From Leptolyngbyaceae cyanobacterium CSU_1_3 (GTDB taxonomy: Bacteria > Cyanobacteriota > Cyanobacteriia > Leptolyngbyales > Leptolyngbyaceae): a DNA stretch of 64,000 bases. Position 1 is the first letter of the stretch, and each line of letters opens with the position of its first letter. Position numbers and translations under genes: made by a program. Under the pieces are notes generated by a model that was given only the letters and a program-made list of their open reading frames with translations, was not told the DNA's origin and ran no database searches. Of the stretch, positions 51,953-61,024 are shown piece by piece. The DNA is taken from NCBI GenBank assembly GCA_012034655.1, contig JAAUOZ010000004.1:1-64000 (forward strand). The letters are read 5' to 3'.

Positions 51953-52381
51953 ATGACTAAGCCACAATCTGCTAGCCTGAGCAAGTTCCTAAAGTCTGTC
52001 GGCCCGCTTAATTATCGATCGCATCACCGTTTCTTGCTCATCGGTGTAATCGGACGTGCGCTCTGGATAAAACGCAGGCGGCTGACCGAATCGGCTCTAG
52101 GCTATCGCTTGGTTGTGGCAGACTACTCTCAGATTGAACTGCGGGCGGCAGCAGAACGGAGTGGCGATCGCCGCATGATTGAGGCATACCAGAATGATGA
52201 AGACTTGCACCGACTAACCGCTGCCCTGATTGCTGATAAATCGTTGGATCAAGTTGAGAAATCGGAGCGACAGGCAGCCAAAGCCATCAATTTTGGGCTG
52301 ATCTATGCGATGGGTGCTAAAGCTGAGTACGCCTACAACAACTTTCATTGTAGGAGTTGTGGCTCAAATTTGTCGAGGTAG
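51953..52381 (+). pseudogene. fragment of family A DNA polymerase (polA-like)
   Basis: Two polymerase A motifs are visible: LVVADYSQIELRAAAERSGD (motif A, catalytic Asp) and RQAAKAINFGLIYAMGA (motif B, O-helix). The N-terminal 35 residues do not resemble the family, and the frame ends 20 codons after motif B (NNFHCRSCGSNLSR), so palm motif C is missing. It is a relic of a full DNA polymerase I gene, possibly of plasmid or phage type. It lies directly upstream of the Cmr CRISPR operon (33 bases to Cmr1). Confidence 0.7.
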
Positions 52382-52414
52382 GCTATAGTCGGCAAGGTGC
52401 GCTGCTTAGGAAAA

Positions 52415-53581
52415 ATGGAAATTAACATTAAGGCATTAACTCCCCTCTGGACTGGCGGCGTGGAATCTGGCAAGTGCGATCGCATCCACGAAACGGGCAT
52501 CCTCGGCAGCCTGCGCTGGTGGATGGAAGTGCTGGTACGGGGAATGGGAGGCAATGTTTGCGATCCAACTGAGCAAAAATGTTCTTACAAAAACGGACTT
52601 TGCGAGGTCTGCAAAATTTTCGGCGCAGAAGGTCAGAAACGCCGATTTCGGTTAGAAGTGGTTCAGGATAACACCAAACCTGACAAAAATGTCTCACCAA
52701 AAATCGAGCTTCAGCCTTATCAATACCAATACAAAGATCAACAAGGTCGAGAAAAAACTGGAACTCGCACACCAACTTGGTATTTCCCTCAAAATGAGGA
52801 AGATAAGCCGAGATCAAGCACCTTCACTGTTCAGATTCAAAGTCTGCATCCAAACTTTACGCCAGAAGTTATCGGTGGATTAATTCAATTCATCGCTGAT
52901 TGGTCGGCATTGGGAGCGCGACCTCAAATGGGTTTTGGTGTAATACAGGTAGAGGGAAGTCGCATTGATACGCAACCCCTCCATGACTGGCTCGTAACCA
53001 CAGCCGGAAGTGATACTTACTCAGACCTGCCTTCGTTACAGAACATCTTTCTGGCAAAGATCCAACCCAAAGCCTCAACTCCTCCGTTTAAGGAGCAAGA
53101 CACCTTCAATTTGAAGTACGACCTTCGCAAGCTTTTTAGAACAGATGTAGAAGCTAACGATGGGAAGGACGGAGATGGGAAGTCACGTCCTAAGAAAAAG
53201 GATAGAGATAAAGACTTACGCCACTTCATCATGGGTGCAGTATCGGACGATAAGAACAATAAAAGAGATGATAAGACGGAAGATAAAAGCATGGCTGCCA
53301 AGATCAAAATCTCCCGCCCTTACAATGAAAATGGAACCACGGTAATGCGTGTTTGGGGCTGGATTCCTAAGGAAGATGATTGTAAAAAAGATCTATATAA
53401 AAATGGTTGGAACAGAGAAAAGGTCGTAGAGGTTATTTATCAATATCTGACAGCAAACTATACCTTGCACGATTGGTGTGAAATGAGTTTAACGAGAGAT
53501 ACCGAAGCAAAGAATATCAGTGACGCAAAGGTATTTCTGCATAGTCTATTGAAATTGCAGGAGACCAGCGATGCAGTATGA
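52415..53581 (+). CDS. cmr1: type III-B CRISPR RAMP protein Cmr1
   Basis: A subunit of the Cmr effector complex that binds the target-RNA end of the crRNA-target duplex. It opens MEINIKALTPLWTGGVESG and continues RIHETGILGSLRWWMEVLVRG, the Cmr1 N-terminal RAMP signature, with a Cys pair in KCSYKNGLCEVCKIFG. The middle has a charged low-complexity insert (about residues 245-300). ATG at 52415 after AGGAAAA. It overlaps the following RAMP gene by 11 bases. Confidence 0.85.
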   Translation: MEINIKALTPLWTGGVESGKCDRIHETGILGSLRWWMEVLVRGMGGNVCDPTEQKCSYKNGLCEVCKIFGAEGQKRRFRLEVVQDNTKPDKNVSPKIELQPYQYQYKDQQGREKTGTRTPTWYFPQNEEDKPRSSTFTVQIQSLHPNFTPEVIGGLIQFIADWSALGARPQMGFGVIQVEGSRIDTQPLHDWLVTTAGSDTYSDLPSLQNIFLAKIQPKASTPPFKEQDTFNLKYDLRKLFRTDVEANDGKDGDGKSRPKKKDRDKDLRHFIMGAVSDDKNNKRDDKTEDKSMAAKIKISRPYNENGTTVMRVWGWIPKEDDCKKDLYKNGWNREKVVEVIYQYLTANYTLHDWCEMSLTRDTEAKNISDAKVFLHSLLKLQETSDAV

Positions 53582-54770
53582 CTACTATGCCTTTCGGAGA
53601 GAGCAGTTGGGTGATCCGCTGAATGAACTTGAGCAAGCAAAGCAACAAAAGGATAAAAATGCCCGTAACCAAGCAATAGAGCAAGCTGCTAAAAAAGCGA
53701 TTCAGCTTGAACCTCATCTATCCTATCTGTGGTACGAAGCTCAAGGTTCTGAACTCAAAAATCCCATTCGCGATGCTTGGCAAAAACGCTTGACTGCCAA
53801 CTCTATTCCAAGTGAATTTCAATTTCTGCCAAAACTCTCTGACCTCGATCGCCTTCCCTCTCTCAGTTTTATGCTACGGGTTCCTTTCAAACTGCGGAAA
53901 CCCTACCTGAGCAAAGACGATCGCACCTTTCACCTGCTCGATAACCCCGTCCGCAAAGACAAGGTGTTTCAAACTCCAATGGTTGCCTCAACCAGTTGGA
54001 AAGGGGCATTACGCGCAACATTATGGCAATTAGGGTATCAAGAGAACAATGAACAAATAATTCGTCTCTTTGGTAATGAGCGTGAGGAAGAAAATCATGA
54101 AAATCTGCAATCAGGACGACTCTATTTTTACCCAACTTTCTTCAGCAATATTGATGAGAAAGAACGGCTGGAAGTGATTAACCCGCACGATCGCGCAAAA
54201 GGTACATCCAAACGAGGTCCTATCCCACTGGAGTGTGTTCCAGTGGGAGCAACGGGCGAACTGGTGATTCTCTATGTTCCCTTTGTCCAAGTTGGGAAGG
54301 AGGAAAAGGAGGAAATTGCTCAAGATCTGGAATTGGCTGCTAAAGGAGTAGAAGTCATGCTCACGGTCTATGGCTTTGGAGCCAAGACCAGTAGCGGTTT
54401 TGGGGTTGCAGAGTTAAACGGCAAAATAGAATTTGGGATTCGAGCAGATTGGTCGTGTTTAGAGGAAATTTCAACTTCAAACCAAAAGCTGGAATTTTTG
54501 AATGACGATGGAACTTTGAAGCAAGAATTTCTGAATCCTGACGGCAGTTTGAAAACTGAAAAACAATACAAGACTTTTCTGCAAGGTCAAGGAAGAACGC
54601 ATAACAAAAAACTACATCAAGATGCTAAAAAATGGTGGGAAACTAAAAATGATAAGCCTGAATTACCGGAGTCATTTAAAAAGAGAGAGTTTATATCATT
54701 TGAATCCCTGATAACAACAGCAGAGGAATGTTGCAACCAACAGATTAAAGGAGGTATAAGCGATGCTTGA
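53571..54770 (+). CDS. RAMP protein, Cmr6-like
   Basis: A Cmr-complex RAMP subunit. The N-terminal 90 residues are helical and charged. Then SFMLRVPFKLRKPYLS, VASTSWKGALRATLWQLG (RAMP glycine/basic loop), then RLFGNEREEENHENLQSGRLYFYPTFF, EVINPHDRAKGTSKRGPIPLE, and a late GFGAKTSSGFGVAEL. Order and wording match Cmr6 (loop, FG, G.L.FFPA, NPH, PIP), although length and the N-terminal extension are unusual. It overlaps Cmr1 by 11 and the nucleotidyltransferase by 8 bases. A Cmr3 identity is less likely. Confidence 0.65.
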   Translation: MQYDYYAFRREQLGDPLNELEQAKQQKDKNARNQAIEQAAKKAIQLEPHLSYLWYEAQGSELKNPIRDAWQKRLTANSIPSEFQFLPKLSDLDRLPSLSFMLRVPFKLRKPYLSKDDRTFHLLDNPVRKDKVFQTPMVASTSWKGALRATLWQLGYQENNEQIIRLFGNEREEENHENLQSGRLYFYPTFFSNIDEKERLEVINPHDRAKGTSKRGPIPLECVPVGATGELVILYVPFVQVGKEEKEEIAQDLELAAKGVEVMLTVYGFGAKTSSGFGVAELNGKIEFGIRADWSCLEEISTSNQKLEFLNDDGTLKQEFLNPDGSLKTEKQYKTFLQGQGRTHNKKLHQDAKKWWETKNDKPELPESFKKREFISFESLITTAEECCNQQIKGGISDA

Positions 54771-55125
54771 ATTAGATTCAGACGAATCTATAAAATTGGC
54801 GATCGCCCTCCCAATTGATACCATTCAAGCCTTCTGTCAACGCTGGCAAATTGCAGAACTGGCAGTATTTGGCTCGATTTTGCGCGATGATTTTCATCTC
54901 GATAGCGATGTTGATTTCTTATATGTCCTTGAGCCGAATACACATTGGAAATTGAGTGATCTGATCCATGCTGAGGAAGAATTGACTCAATTGCTGGGTA
55001 GAAAAGTTGATTTAGTCGGAAAAGCCAGCATTGAACAAAGTCACAACTGGCTGCGAAAACGCAACATTCTTTCATCAGCAAGGGTGATTTATGGCGGGAC
55101 TCTTGGTTATTCAAATAGAGGTTAA
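54763..55125 (+). CDS. MNT-fold nucleotidyltransferase embedded in the Cmr operon
   Basis: A 120-residue minimal nucleotidyltransferase like the antitoxin MntA. Motif FGS (Gly37, Ser38), then DSDVDFLYVL with Asp49 and Asp51 (GSx10DxD), and a third acidic residue Asp83 in LGRKVDLVGKAS: all three metal-binding positions are present, so it should be active. MntA adenylylates a partner HEPN toxin, but no HEPN protein is adjacent. It overlaps the Cmr6-like gene by 8 bases and ends 2 bases before the Cas10 start, so it is co-translated with the effector. A role in modifying a subunit, a nucleotide signal or a linked toxin elsewhere is possible. Confidence 0.85.
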   Translation: MLELDSDESIKLAIALPIDTIQAFCQRWQIAELAVFGSILRDDFHLDSDVDFLYVLEPNTHWKLSDLIHAEEELTQLLGRKVDLVGKASIEQSHNWLRKRNILSSARVIYGGTLGYSNRG

Positions 55126-55127
55126 GC

Positions 55128-58067
55128 ATGAGTAAATCATTCTGGCGACCAACTGATGACCAGCGACGCACAATTTTATTGATGGAAGCTCTTGGGCTAA
55201 TTCACGACTTGGGTAAAATGAGCGATCGCTTCCTCGAAAGCCAAGAACCTCCTAAGCCAAACGAACCCAATGTGGAATATAAAAATACTCTATTATCTGA
55301 TCCACGTACTATCAACACCTATAAGAACCATACGAGCATACCCCAAGATCCCAGTGCAAAATTTGTGCAGAAGATTCTGAATCAAGATGCAACTACACCC
55401 TGTGCGTTCAGTGAGAGAGAAGATTTAACTGAATTGCTTAAGGAAATTGAATTGATATGGATTGCTGAGCAATATAGCTTTGCTGAGTTAATGCCACTTT
55501 TAACCAATGCTGGATTGGTAAAGCAAAGCAACTGGAATGGTGTAGTTGGCAAATCGATGCAACCTGGGCTGCTTGTAGGCTATCTGCACGGCATTGCTCA
55601 TATTGAGAAAGAAGGAGATCCTGACCAACACAAGCAACCTTATCATAAGGTCTTCCGTGCAACGCCGTTTGGTAATGAGGAGCAAATAAGTACAGGCAAT
55701 TCAAAGGAATTGAACTTTAAACTCTGGAAATTATTACCTAAGAGCTATTTTGTTTATATTTATGAACTGACAACTATACTACAGATTTTACCACTAGCCA
55801 CTATTAAAGAAATTACTACTTCTCAAAGATCAGAGTGGTTGGAGCAAATGATGGTATTGATGAAGCGAGGTTTAGCCGATAATCGTCGCCCTCATAACGA
55901 AATCTCTCTCTGGGACTGGGGCTATACTGTTGCTACGTTCACCAAAGCGGCGGCTGTTTATATCTTCAAAAATGGTTGGCTCCCTGATGTCGAAAATCTG
56001 CCCTTCTGCACCCTGAGAATTAACTTAGATATTCTCGATCGCTACACTCATAGCGATAAGATCAGTGATTTATTAGGAATCCAACAAGTTCTGAATGATA
56101 GGTTCAAAGGTGTACAAACACTGCTTGAAGAAACTTACGCTTTTGGAAATCAATTTTATCGAGATGAAACGGGTGCTTATTATCTACTGCCTGCTATTTT
56201 TGACTGCATAGAGCAGACCGCACTACGAGAAGAAATTCAGGCATTATTTCCATCCGATTTACGTCCACAAATTTATTTCAGCTATCCTCCAACTACAGCG
56301 GGTTATTTAGATAATGACAAATCGCGTTCACGAGAATTAGTCGCTGAGCCGCGTAAGAAGGCGTTGAATCAAGAATCAATAAATGCTGATAACAATCTCT
56401 ATCTATTTGAAACGGAGTGGAAAGAAGGTCGTCCTAGAAATGCTGAGATTTGCACTGTTTGTGGAATGCGACCTGTTGGCTATCCGCGTCACGGTTCTCA
56501 ACCTGAAGTAGAGAAAACGCTATCCGTTTGGGCAAAAGAGGAGAAAGGAAAGCAACGCCAAATTTGCCGTGTTTGCTTAGATCGGCGCGGGCGACGCTCG
56601 GAACAATGGATTAACGACGGCTTGCAGCAGACTATTTGGACAGATGAAGTCGCTGATGATAATGGTCACTTGGCACTCTTTGTCGGCAAGCTAGGGTTAG
56701 AGGGCTGGCTTGATGGCACATTGCTCTCCACCATTCAAGTCACTAGCACCACTACCAAAAATCCCTCTCCGGCTCGGCTCTACCGCATTGCTGAAACAGC
56801 CCGCGCATTCTGGAAGAAAGTTACAGATGAATTGATGCCTAATGTAATTGGGCAGTTCTCTTTTCGCTTGGAGCTATATCCCGAAAGGGATAGCAATCTA
56901 GAAGACTTGGGTGATTACCATGCCTACGATCTAGGTATTGATGGTGTAATACTCAGTGTCGTTTGGGATAAACCACGCAAGCGTTTTCTGACAACAGATA
57001 ACTTGAACTACTTTGCTGCCCAACTCCTGGATACACCAGACAATCTAGTTCACAAATTAAAAGGAAAAACATTTCAGATTCTTGAACCCTCAATCTTTTT
57101 GAAGTCCAGCCAAAAAAAGGCTGAAATAACGATTAAAGAAGTCAGCAAGACTGCTGGATATCAACCTGCCATATCCTTGTTGACAGAGCCAAGCCTATGT
57201 TTGATGCTGATTCCTGCTGATAAAGCACTAAAGTTGGCACATCAAGTCAAAGCTGAATACGAACAACAAATGGAGCGAGTGCGCGATCGCTTCCCCTTAA
57301 ACATCGGAATAGTCTTTTGTAAACGTCGTACTCCCATTCGGACTGTGCTAGAAGCAGGTCGGGCAATGCTCAATCTATCAGGGCAGTTCGATATGACTGA
57401 GGGGAAAGGCTGGGAAGGCTGGCGATTGATGCAAAAAGAGTGTTCTGGTGGTTTTGTTAAGTTACAGTTTGATAACGGTATCACTTGGAATATACCTGTG
57501 GTCACTGGTGACAGCAATAAAAAGGATGACTGGTATCCCCGACTTTATCAAGGCGATCGCTGGGAGCAAAAGCAACCAAAACACGCTTGCGATTTAGCAG
57601 TACGTAACCCCAAAATACCGCCAGATAAAGGTGCAAAGTTGTGGGTTAGACCAAGCCGCTTCGACTTTGAATTTCTCGACAGCACCGCCCGTCGCTTCGA
57701 GATTTACTACGACGAAAACGGTCGCCGTCCCCGCCACACCCGTCCCTTCTACCTGGAAGACCTCGATCGATTCGATACACTGTGGGAGATTCTGAAAAAA
57801 CTCGAAACCTCGCAACGCCATCAAGTGATTTACACGATCGAAGCCACCCGCGAAACCTGGTATGGACAAGATGAGCAAGAATCATTAACCGATTCCGTGT
57901 TTAGCCAATTCGTCACTGATACATTGGCTAACGCAACCTGGACTAAAGACTATAGAAAATGGACAGATATTCCTCTAGACCAACGTCAGCAACTCATTGA
58001 TGCTGGAGTACGAGGCGAACTGGCTGACCTGGCAGAACTGCATATGGAAATCTTGAAGGAGCGGTAA
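55128..58067 (+). CDS. type III CRISPR Cas10-family large subunit (Cmr2/Csx11-like), GGDD missing
   Basis: This is the large subunit of the Cmr complex (979 residues). An HD-type motif (LGLIHDLGK, His26-Asp27) is at the N-terminus, and a four-cysteine zinc site lies at Cys442, 445, 480 and 483 (ICTVCG, ICRVCL). The palm domains follow, but the second palm, where GGDD should be, reads LLTEPSLCLMLIPADKALKLA with TEPS at 686-689, and the first palm's DGD is also absent (VGKLGLEGWLDG). So no cyclic oligoadenylate should be made. Csx11-group large subunits of type III-B variants have similar features. RNA-guided single-strand DNA cleavage by the HD domain remains possible, though its later LWDWG lacks the usual His. 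Confidence 0.85.
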   Translation: MSKSFWRPTDDQRRTILLMEALGLIHDLGKMSDRFLESQEPPKPNEPNVEYKNTLLSDPRTINTYKNHTSIPQDPSAKFVQKILNQDATTPCAFSEREDLTELLKEIELIWIAEQYSFAELMPLLTNAGLVKQSNWNGVVGKSMQPGLLVGYLHGIAHIEKEGDPDQHKQPYHKVFRATPFGNEEQISTGNSKELNFKLWKLLPKSYFVYIYELTTILQILPLATIKEITTSQRSEWLEQMMVLMKRGLADNRRPHNEISLWDWGYTVATFTKAAAVYIFKNGWLPDVENLPFCTLRINLDILDRYTHSDKISDLLGIQQVLNDRFKGVQTLLEETYAFGNQFYRDETGAYYLLPAIFDCIEQTALREEIQALFPSDLRPQIYFSYPPTTAGYLDNDKSRSRELVAEPRKKALNQESINADNNLYLFETEWKEGRPRNAEICTVCGMRPVGYPRHGSQPEVEKTLSVWAKEEKGKQRQICRVCLDRRGRRSEQWINDGLQQTIWTDEVADDNGHLALFVGKLGLEGWLDGTLLSTIQVTSTTTKNPSPARLYRIAETARAFWKKVTDELMPNVIGQFSFRLELYPERDSNLEDLGDYHAYDLGIDGVILSVVWDKPRKRFLTTDNLNYFAAQLLDTPDNLVHKLKGKTFQILEPSIFLKSSQKKAEITIKEVSKTAGYQPAISLLTEPSLCLMLIPADKALKLAHQVKAEYEQQMERVRDRFPLNIGIVFCKRRTPIRTVLEAGRAMLNLSGQFDMTEGKGWEGWRLMQKECSGGFVKLQFDNGITWNIPVVTGDSNKKDDWYPRLYQGDRWEQKQPKHACDLAVRNPKIPPDKGAKLWVRPSRFDFEFLDSTARRFEIYYDENGRRPRHTRPFYLEDLDRFDTLWEILKKLETSQRHQVIYTIEATRETWYGQDEQESLTDSVFSQFVTDTLANATWTKDYRKWTDIPLDQRQQLIDAGVRGELADLAELHMEILKER

Positions 58068-58075
58068 AGAAAACA

Positions 58076-59176
58076 ATGGCAACGTATAAACGGCAACGCT
58101 ATCTATTTATGACCCTCGACCCCGTGCATATCGGTACGGGCGGCTATCGCCTGGGACGGGTAGACAACAGCATTGTGCGAGAACCAGGAACTAAAATCCC
58201 TAAAATTCCCGGTACAAGTTTGCATGGGGCAGCGCGATCGTATGCCGCACAGTTGTATGAAACCCCAGAAGCCGCAGGACAAGATCAGAAAGGTATTACC
58301 AATCCTGAAACCAATCCAGTTTGTTACACCTTTGGCTATTTGAATTCGGGTGATGGTGACAATCCGTCAGATAGTAATCAGACCAAGCCAAAGAAGAAAG
58401 AAGTCGCTTATTCCGGTGTAGTCAATATCTTTGATGCCCATGTGCTGCTGTTTCCCGTACATTCAATGGTAGGTGCAGTTTGGGTCAGCACAGTTGAGCG
58501 ATTGAAAGAAGCAGGCTTTACGGGTTTACCTGATGATTGGGATGACGTTAGCACGGCGGTTTTAACTTGGGATAAACCTGATAAACGACTCAATCTCGGT
58601 TGGTTGATGGTCAATGTTGCTGATCAAAAAGTAGAGGTGAAAACACCTTCAAAATGGCAAAGTGGAGATCGCCAGAAAGCTCTTGATCAAGCTATCAAAA
58701 AGATTGTTCTGATCAAAGATGCACTCTTCAGCCAAATCGTGAACAGCAACCTGGAAGTGCGGACATCAGTAGCAATTAATCCTGACACTGGCGCAGCCGA
58801 AGAAGGGGCGCTATTCACCTATGAAGCCATTCCCCGCGCCACATTCCTCACCGCAGAGGTTGTACTCGATGATTATCGTAGAGAAAAAGAAGAATGGCAT
58901 TTGGGGAAGATTAAAGAAACAGGTAAAAAGAAAGAAGATGGCACACCAAAGCAATTACCAGGAGATGCTTGGAGCGATCCACTAGACGTGGTGAAAGCAG
59001 GGTTTCGCATGATTGAATGGCTGGGAGTCGGTGGCATGGGCACACGCGGCTTTGGACGCATGGCAGTGGTTGGTGAGCCAACAGAGGTAACGTTGAAAAA
59101 CTGCTGGCAAGGTTCAGAAACATCCTCACCTACGGAGCAACCTACCACAACTGCTGACAAAGGAGGCAACTCATGA
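58076..59176 (+). CDS. cmr4: type III-B CRISPR RAMP protein Cmr4 (backbone, target-RNA nuclease)
   Basis: A backbone subunit that cleaves the target RNA at 6-base intervals. It has LDPVHIGTGGYRLGRVDNSIVRE, with Asp30 in the position of the catalytic Asp of Cmr4 (V-D-x-x-I-x-R-E), then KIPGTSLHGAARS, VNIFDAHVLLFPVHSMVGAVWV, and C-terminal MIEWLGVGGMGTRGFGRM. The active Asp is retained, so target-RNA cleavage should work even though the Cas10 cyclase is absent. A Lys-rich insert (KPKKKEV and KKKEDGTPK) is present. It starts 8 bases after Cas10. Confidence 0.82.
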   Translation: MATYKRQRYLFMTLDPVHIGTGGYRLGRVDNSIVREPGTKIPKIPGTSLHGAARSYAAQLYETPEAAGQDQKGITNPETNPVCYTFGYLNSGDGDNPSDSNQTKPKKKEVAYSGVVNIFDAHVLLFPVHSMVGAVWVSTVERLKEAGFTGLPDDWDDVSTAVLTWDKPDKRLNLGWLMVNVADQKVEVKTPSKWQSGDRQKALDQAIKKIVLIKDALFSQIVNSNLEVRTSVAINPDTGAAEEGALFTYEAIPRATFLTAEVVLDDYRREKEEWHLGKIKETGKKKEDGTPKQLPGDAWSDPLDVVKAGFRMIEWLGVGGMGTRGFGRMAVVGEPTEVTLKNCWQGSETSSPTEQPTTTADKGGNS

Positions 59177-59595
59177 GTGATAAACCAATAAACCTCGATC
59201 GCCTCGCCGCCCAACACGCCCAAGCACTAATTAAGAGTGCTAAAGATGATATCGAAACCACCGTCACTAAAACATTAGGCGTATTGCAAGAAGATGGCGT
59301 GTACGCCTGCTTCCTGTACCTATTGGCAAAAGAGAAGGAAAATGGGAAAGCAACTGTTGCAGAGATGCTTAACTTGCTTGATGGGTTGAAATTTGGTTGG
59401 GGCAAACCAGCGAGTAACAAACCTGAAGACATCCTCTCGCACATTACCGAAAAAGTCACCGTTCATCTGGAACGGCTCCTATTGGCAAAAGAAACATTAG
59501 AACAGATGCTAATTTATGCTCGTTATGGGGCAAAGGCACGGAAAGATGCAGAGCCAGAGAAGGGGCAGTCAGATAGTCAGGAGAATCAGTCGTGA
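59173..59595 (+). CDS. cmr5: type III-B CRISPR small subunit Cmr5
   Basis: An all-helical small subunit (140 residues) that sits on the target strand. It begins INLDRLAAQHAQALIKSA and contains YLLAKEKENGKATVAEMLNLLDGL and HLERLLLAKETLEQMLIYARYGAKARKDAE, typical of Cmr5. It overlaps the end of cmr4 by 4 bases (ATGA) and the next gene by 4 bases. Confidence 0.82.
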   Translation: MSDKPINLDRLAAQHAQALIKSAKDDIETTVTKTLGVLQEDGVYACFLYLLAKEKENGKATVAEMLNLLDGLKFGWGKPASNKPEDILSHITEKVTVHLERLLLAKETLEQMLIYARYGAKARKDAEPEKGQSDSQENQS

Positions 59596-60431
59596 CGTGG
59601 AAAGCCTATCGAGTCGTGTTTAAGCTAAAGTCCCCCGTGCACATTGGCTGCGGCAAAGTGGGTAACGTGCAGCGCACCCGTCCTTACGTCACTGGGCGAG
59701 TATTTTGGGGTGCTCTTACCATGCGATTGACCCGCGATGCCATAAGTGGAACTGCGACAGACTCCAGCCAGTACAAGACTTTTGGAGATAAGGTCAATGA
59801 GCAGTTAGCCTATACCTACTTTTATCTCGCTACAAAAGAGAATGGAGTTTATCAAATTCAGTGGCCGTGGGGAGATGAGGAGAGCCTCTTTCGCCGCCGT
59901 TTTCTCAGCAGCTATACCAGTACTGCATTGATGTATCTGCAACAAGCCGCCGATGAAGGGCTACTCCATGAAGTAGAGTTTCTCTCACCTCGCACATTGG
60001 ATGAAGGGGAACAGGTTTATCTAGTTGGCTACGTGTTTGAGAAAGAGGGCTGTGATCTCAAATGGCGAGATGCCTGTAAACATCTGCAATTGGGTGGTGA
60101 ACGCGGCTATGGTTGGGGAGACGTTAAGTGTGTTGAGATTAAGCCCCTAGAGAATCATGATTTGTTTGAGGAGCAGGTAACTTTTAACGGTGACGGGGAT
60201 AGTCCTACCATTCAAGCAAAACGATTGCTAGCTCATGCCTCGTCAACAGGTATAACGGCAACGGGTGAGATAGAACCATTAGTTGGTCGAGAATGGCGAT
60301 CGAACGAGTCAACCAATAAATATGCAGGGCAATATGTAGCATTTTCTGATCTTTGCTGGGTTCCAGGAAGTGTCGTCGAGCGATCGCTTTTTGTGATTAG
60401 AGATTTTGGTATTTGGCATTTATCGGACTGA
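59592..60431 (+). CDS. RAMP protein, Cas5/Cmr3-like
   Basis: The last gene of the operon encodes a 279-residue RAMP. It starts YRVVFKLKSPVHIGCGKVGNVQRTRPYVTGRVFWGALTMRLTRD (a Cas5-group beta strand and GALT helix), and later LQLGGERGYGWGDVKC, the glycine loop. In Cmr3 and Csx10 the same positions have G.T..GALR and GG...RG(W/F)G, so it most likely takes the Cmr3 place that binds the crRNA 5' tag. Sequence similarity is too loose to be certain and a Cmr6 identity is not excluded. No CRISPR array follows. Confidence 0.65.
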   Translation: MTWKAYRVVFKLKSPVHIGCGKVGNVQRTRPYVTGRVFWGALTMRLTRDAISGTATDSSQYKTFGDKVNEQLAYTYFYLATKENGVYQIQWPWGDEESLFRRRFLSSYTSTALMYLQQAADEGLLHEVEFLSPRTLDEGEQVYLVGYVFEKEGCDLKWRDACKHLQLGGERGYGWGDVKCVEIKPLENHDLFEEQVTFNGDGDSPTIQAKRLLAHASSTGITATGEIEPLVGREWRSNESTNKYAGQYVAFSDLCWVPGSVVERSLFVIRDFGIWHLSD

Positions 60432-60555: not shown

Positions 60556-61024
60556 CTAAAACCCTCCCCATAACTCAAGATGACCACTCTTTTTTCTGAC
60601 TATGAGATTCGACGCAAGGGTTTGACGTGCTGCCGTTGCTGTGAGGTCGAATAATGCACCAACAAAGACTAATAAGAAAATGACGATCGGCGACACTGAG
60701 TTGAACTTGAGAAATACAATTGGCAACAACAGAACTGAAACGCTACTCAATACATCAGCCGTCACACTTACTCGCCATGCGCCAAAGTAATCGATCGCTC
60801 TACTCCCCACAAAAGCAGCTAATACTATCGGAATGATGCTGCCTGCGCCAGCGATTCCAGTCGCGATTACCCAAAGGGGAACTTGCTTCGCAAACCGCAG
60901 AGTGAGTAAATTGCAGCACCAAAATTGGAATTGCGATCGCAGCAATTTGATTGCCGATTTGACAGAGAAATTCAGCCGCAATCAGGCAAATGAGGGGCAG
61001 CGATCGAGGTGTCAATTTCCTCAT
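60556..61024 (-). pseudogene. MFS transporter N-terminal fragment, frameshifted
   Basis: The minus-strand gene starts MRKLTPRSLPLICLIAAEFLCQIGNQIAAIAIPILVLQFTHS, an MFS first-helix sequence. After a frameshift near 60900 it continues in another frame: VPLWVIATGIAGAGSIIPIVLAAFVGSRAID...RVSVTADVLSSVSVLLLPIVFL, helices 2-4. It then ends in a non-family tail (KKSGHLELWGGF). At least two thirds of the 12-helix transporter is missing. Its ATGA overlaps the stop of the GNAT gene, showing past translational coupling. Confidence 0.65.

Follow-up and report, generated by a model that had tools for sequence, protein, structure and literature searches.

Type III-C is a rare CRISPR subtype, the large subunit of which was described in a 2011 study as an 'inactivated Cas10 (Csx11 subfamily)' (PMC3150331). 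Later work treats the III-C Cas10 as cyclase-inactive across the whole subtype (PMC11229360, PMC12669027), and the 2025 classification places III-C among the subtypes with an inactivated cyclase and reports that most III-C loci are without arrays (PMC12669027). No known effectors were found at III-C loci in a published survey (PMC11229360), and an HD domain has been reported in about half of III-C. A Methanosarcina mazei system that carries the label III-C in one review table is listed there with cyclic oligoadenylate (cOA) signaling, an entry that counts against the interpretation favored here. The locus described below lies in a 64-kb stretch of DNA, referred to as the window, from a Leptolyngbyaceae cyanobacterium.

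The operon and its large subunit

Seven genes make up the operon, in the order cmr1, cmr6, MNT nucleotidyltransferase, csx11, cmr4, cmr5 and cmr3, with the following coordinates in the window:

52397..53581, + strand: cmr1 (NCBIfam TIGR01894 cas_TM1795_cmr1, 73.9 bits, above cut-off; PADLOC Cmr1)
53571..54770, + strand: cmr6 (PADLOC Cmr6, E = 5e-74)
54763..55125, + strand: MNT nucleotidyltransferase, an MntA-like antitoxin without a HEPN toxin partner (Pfam NTP_transf_2, 62 bits; MntA-like, under the equivalog cut-off)
55128..58067, + strand: csx11/cas10c, large subunit, with E687-P688-S689-L690 replacing GGDD (TIGR02682; PADLOC Cas10c; alignments)
58076..59176, + strand: cmr4, predicted Cas7 backbone RNase with Asp30 intact (TIGR02580, 113 bits, above cut-off; GRVDN motif)
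59173..59595, + strand: cmr5, small subunit (PADLOC Cmr5, E = 3e-45)
59592..60431, + strand: cmr3, Cas5-group subunit (PADLOC Cmr3, E = 2e-93)

The fourth gene of the operon is a 979-amino-acid ORF on the forward strand that spans exactly 55128-58067. It matched the NCBIfam Csx11 model TIGR02682 with 357 bits (cut-off, 249), and the PADLOC Cas10c model (III-C; PDLC01314) scored 548 bits on it, whereas the next Cas10 model outside III-C scored 29 bits; from these scores it was identified as a type III-C Cas10. A Pfam Cas10-Cmr2_palm2 match to residues 692 to 749 was sub-threshold. Membership of III-C is also reflected in the Cmr-like backbone, of which cmr1, cmr6, cmr4, cmr5 and cmr3 were all found, Cmr5 being present. 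The closest relative was 78% identical and located on a Leptolyngbyaceae contig, and plasmid matches were identified in Nostocales and Thermus. Two scans of viral contigs returned no relatives, and phage records gave no match.

Both borders of the operon carry gene fragments. Immediately 5′ of cmr1 is a 142-amino-acid ORF corresponding to part of a family A DNA polymerase gene, polA (51953-52381; PF00476, 91 bits). Arrival of this fragment with a Csx11 plasmid was considered but found no support, as no polA-fragment match was present among the plasmid loci. Directly downstream of cmr3, on the reverse strand, a 141-amino-acid fragment of a major facilitator superfamily (MFS) transporter was identified (60556-60981), which suggests a broken gene at the operon border.

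Related operons showed further variation. In G516, an inserted transposase-like ORF divides csx11 into two parts (L023:7946-11900), and an IS3-like insertion likewise splits csx11 of the Thermus relative (L019). Between cmr1 and cmr6, three loci carry a gene of ∼195 amino acids that resembles a Uma2-type putative endonuclease (L003:303-902, L020:7354-7953 and L022:13575-14156); this gene is absent from the window operon. A second, partial III-C operon was identified on another contig of the same assembly (C321; L011:1-2891). Its csx11 end shares ∼80% identity with csx11 of the window, and its cmr4 and cmr3 each fall into two ORFs. Such a copy is either a paralog or derived from a contaminating, related strain.

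The former cyclase palm of Csx11

No GGDD-type motif was found in the 979 amino acids of Csx11, including at the palm 2 position where type III-B carries it. The cyclase site was mapped from sequence alone. E687-P688-S689-L690 was placed opposite the GGDD of active Cmr2 in three alignments, namely, a weak single-sequence phmmer comparison with Pyrococcus furiosus Cmr2 (E = 0.03), a search of PDB chains with a profile of six sequences (E = 0.0023) and an hhalign profile-profile comparison of the palm region with cyanobacterial GGDD Cmr2 (E = 2.8e−5). Whole-length hhalign of Csx11 and Cmr2 was weak overall, and the alignment was useful in the palm region only. There, K521 and a gap in Csx11 lined up with DGD ('FAILMMDGDNMGQW'), the second acidic motif, which active enzymes carry where the cyclase palm starts. 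The first-pass annotation had thus correctly read the GGDD as missing, and the first-palm acidic motif that it noted as missing is taken here to be DGD; the residues it had assigned to the GGDD position, TEPS at 686 to 689, were one residue early, since the three alignments place E687 to L690 there.

The loss extends beyond the window. Across the eight aligned sequences (the window and seven relatives), the GGDD position was occupied by EPSL, EPRT or EPST, or by SPLR in Thermus, and none of the eight had an acidic pair at this position. DGD and GGDD were both missing in the seven relatives as well, some of which have a Csx11 only ∼40% identical. As a like replacement recurs in all seven, the EPSL pattern is not attributable to chance. 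That the Csx11 complex would make no cOA, as first proposed for this protein, is a well-supported prediction, and it matches the expectation for the subtype (PMC11229360, PMC12669027).

The protein is maintained, in agreement with the earlier reading. Zinc ribbon residues C442/C445 and C480/C483 were invariant in an alignment of six cyanobacterial Csx11 sequences (A1), and the cysteines were present in all eight sequences when L023 and the Thermus relative were included. Relative to the 78%-identical sequence, csx11 of the window had a dN/dS of 0.17, and its former cyclase palm gave 0.09 in one half and 0.12 in the other, which contains the former GGDD; cmr6 and cmr4 gave 0.16 and 0.23, respectively, and all genes tested fell within 0.11 to 0.23. 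Given this purifying selection and a motif loss common to the relatives, the loss of the cyclase is old and tolerated rather than a sign of recent decay.

Proposed function and alternative explanations

The locus is very probably a complete type III-C (Cmr-like) effector operon under selection, a grading that applies jointly to the remainder of the favored interpretation: an anciently inactivated cyclase, an RNA-cutting complex with Csx11 as its scaffold and crRNAs provided in trans. Csx11, the large subunit, would have a mainly structural role in the complex and would bind crRNA and target. The complex is predicted from motif conservation to cut target RNA, guided by crRNA, at Asp30 of Cmr4, which is the RNase site of canonical Cmr4. 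The GRVDN motif containing Asp30 was intact in the window, as first noted, and also in relatives.

The HD region of Csx11 is more equivocal. It had been described as preserved, and this stands insofar as H26-D27-K30, H154 and H158 were invariant in A1; however, the region scored below threshold in both Pfam (13.5 versus 23.1 bits) and NCBIfam (13.4 versus 43.5 bits), and the domain is recognizable by the dyad and nearby histidines only. DNase activity may be absent given these scores, and target-activated cutting of single-stranded DNA at this divergent site is tentatively possible.

The 64-kb window yielded no CRISPR array, and the ORF list for its 40- to 64-kb portion showed no cas1, cas2 or cas6. 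Other contigs of the assembly hold arrays, Cas6, Cas1 (on four contigs, C278 and C42 among them) and GGDD Cas10s, and arrays at other genomic sites would probably supply the crRNAs. Completeness of the assembly is 93% and its contamination is estimated at 4%, which leaves some doubt over the ownership of these contigs. At least three other GGDD Cas10s were identified (C234, C278 and C42). The C234 Cas10 reads as two ORFs; its context is that of type III-D and comprises Csx10, Csx19, a CARF-RelE-like protein, Cas6 and an array. With these Cas10s in the genome, the cell can probably signal with cyclic nucleotides, and such signaling, if used, would originate from them and not from the III-C complex. 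The additional effector that the first-pass annotation invoked beside RNA cleavage is consequently not needed for this locus.

The same genomic context bears on an alternative that we consider unlikely, in which the complex would only bind or compete, either lacking DNase activity and cutting RNA slowly or modulating the cell's active type III systems through shared crRNAs and targets. The sub-threshold HD scores and the other GGDD Cas10 loci are consistent with such a role, as is relative G396, where ∼10 kb separates the III-C operon from an operon that has a GGDD Cmr2 and CARF-like genes. However, retention of H26/D27/K30, H154 and H158 in cyanobacterial relatives suggests that the HD site still matters, and Asp30 of Cmr4 has also been kept. 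G396 additionally carries a short four-copy CRISPR array within its III-C operon, between cmr4 and cmr5 (L020:15961-16222); a 16-base piece of its repeat was not found in the genome from which the window derives.

The gap between cmr6 and csx11 harbors MNT or MNT/HEPN genes in five related III-C operons (54763-55125 in the window; L003:2063-2738; L020:9273-10014; L022:11257-12445; L023:7098-7842). It contains MNT and HepT in L003, another MNT and HEPN pair in G396 and G516, and in G550 an MNT, a truncated HEPN and then a second MNT; G550, too, has lost the matching HepT. The window has MNT alone, and two Nostocales plasmids have nothing at this position. The window MNT carries the GS-x10-DxD motif, as read from its sequence, and is under purifying selection (dN/dS, 0.11 to 0.17). 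No HepT gene or remnant was found in the 64-kb window, so that of a MntA-HepT type VII toxin-antitoxin system the MNT motif is there and the adjoining HEPN (RX4HXY) toxin gene is missing. The simplest account is a toxin-antitoxin insertion point followed by loss of the toxin. As an observation, the recurrent MNT/HEPN genes may be newer than the loss of the cyclase. An unsupported possibility is that the CRISPR complex has recruited MNT. As an antitoxin without its toxin, the non-Cas gene of the operon is not a demonstrated effector, and it is very unlikely that the MNT/HEPN cassette serves as the effector for a type III system that makes no cOA, with the toxin-less MNT of the window being a nucleotidyltransferase that acts with or on the III-C complex.

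Cyclase or nucleotidyltransferase activity, and hence a signal, could in principle arise from a relocated acidic site in Csx11, for example DEVAD (506-510), E687 or FDFEFLD (845-851). The acidic residues of these segments were largely invariant in the six sequences of A1, and the structure predictions, with a pLDDT of only 35 for whole Csx11 from one sequence and 37 for residues 501 to 770 with one relative, leave room for such a site. Nevertheless, both canonical metal-binding motifs have been lost, the Thermus relative has Ser at E687 and III-C loci have no known effectors (PMC11229360), making this explanation highly improbable. Equally little credence is given to a decaying or dead operon in which loss of GGDD is one part of general decay, an explanation prompted by the missing HepT gene beside MNT and the polA fragment just upstream, as all six effector genes are intact, the tested genes are under the selection described above and the motif loss is shared with distant relatives.

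Comparison with known type III systems

The favored interpretation, a III-C operon with an inactivated cyclase and a predicted RNA-cutting complex, adds a well-conserved cyanobacterial example to III-C, a subtype for which the literature searched contained no biochemical study. It also illustrates that several GGDD Cas10 loci and a cOA-less type III operon can be present in the same genome. Type III-B Cmr systems have Cmr1, Cmr3, Cmr4, Cmr5 and Cmr6, the palm helices, the zinc ribbon and the Cmr4 Asp in common with the window operon; however, Cmr2 has DGD and GGDD where Csx11 has K521/gap and EPSL. Other subtypes for which loss or inactivation of the Cas10 cyclase has been reported (PMC12669027) have different subunit sets, and their likeness to this locus reflects convergent loss rather than family membership. 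With type III-C (Csx11/Cas10c), the operon shares the large-subunit family, the Cmr-like subunits, the inactivated cyclase palm and the lack of an adjacent array, and the sole difference, the MNT gene between cmr6 and csx11, is incidental. Since surveys of 2011, 2024 and 2025 already call the Csx11/III-C Cas10 cyclase-inactive, the absence of GGDD is a correct reading of a known III-C property and not a new one, and the known picture of the subtype is unchanged.
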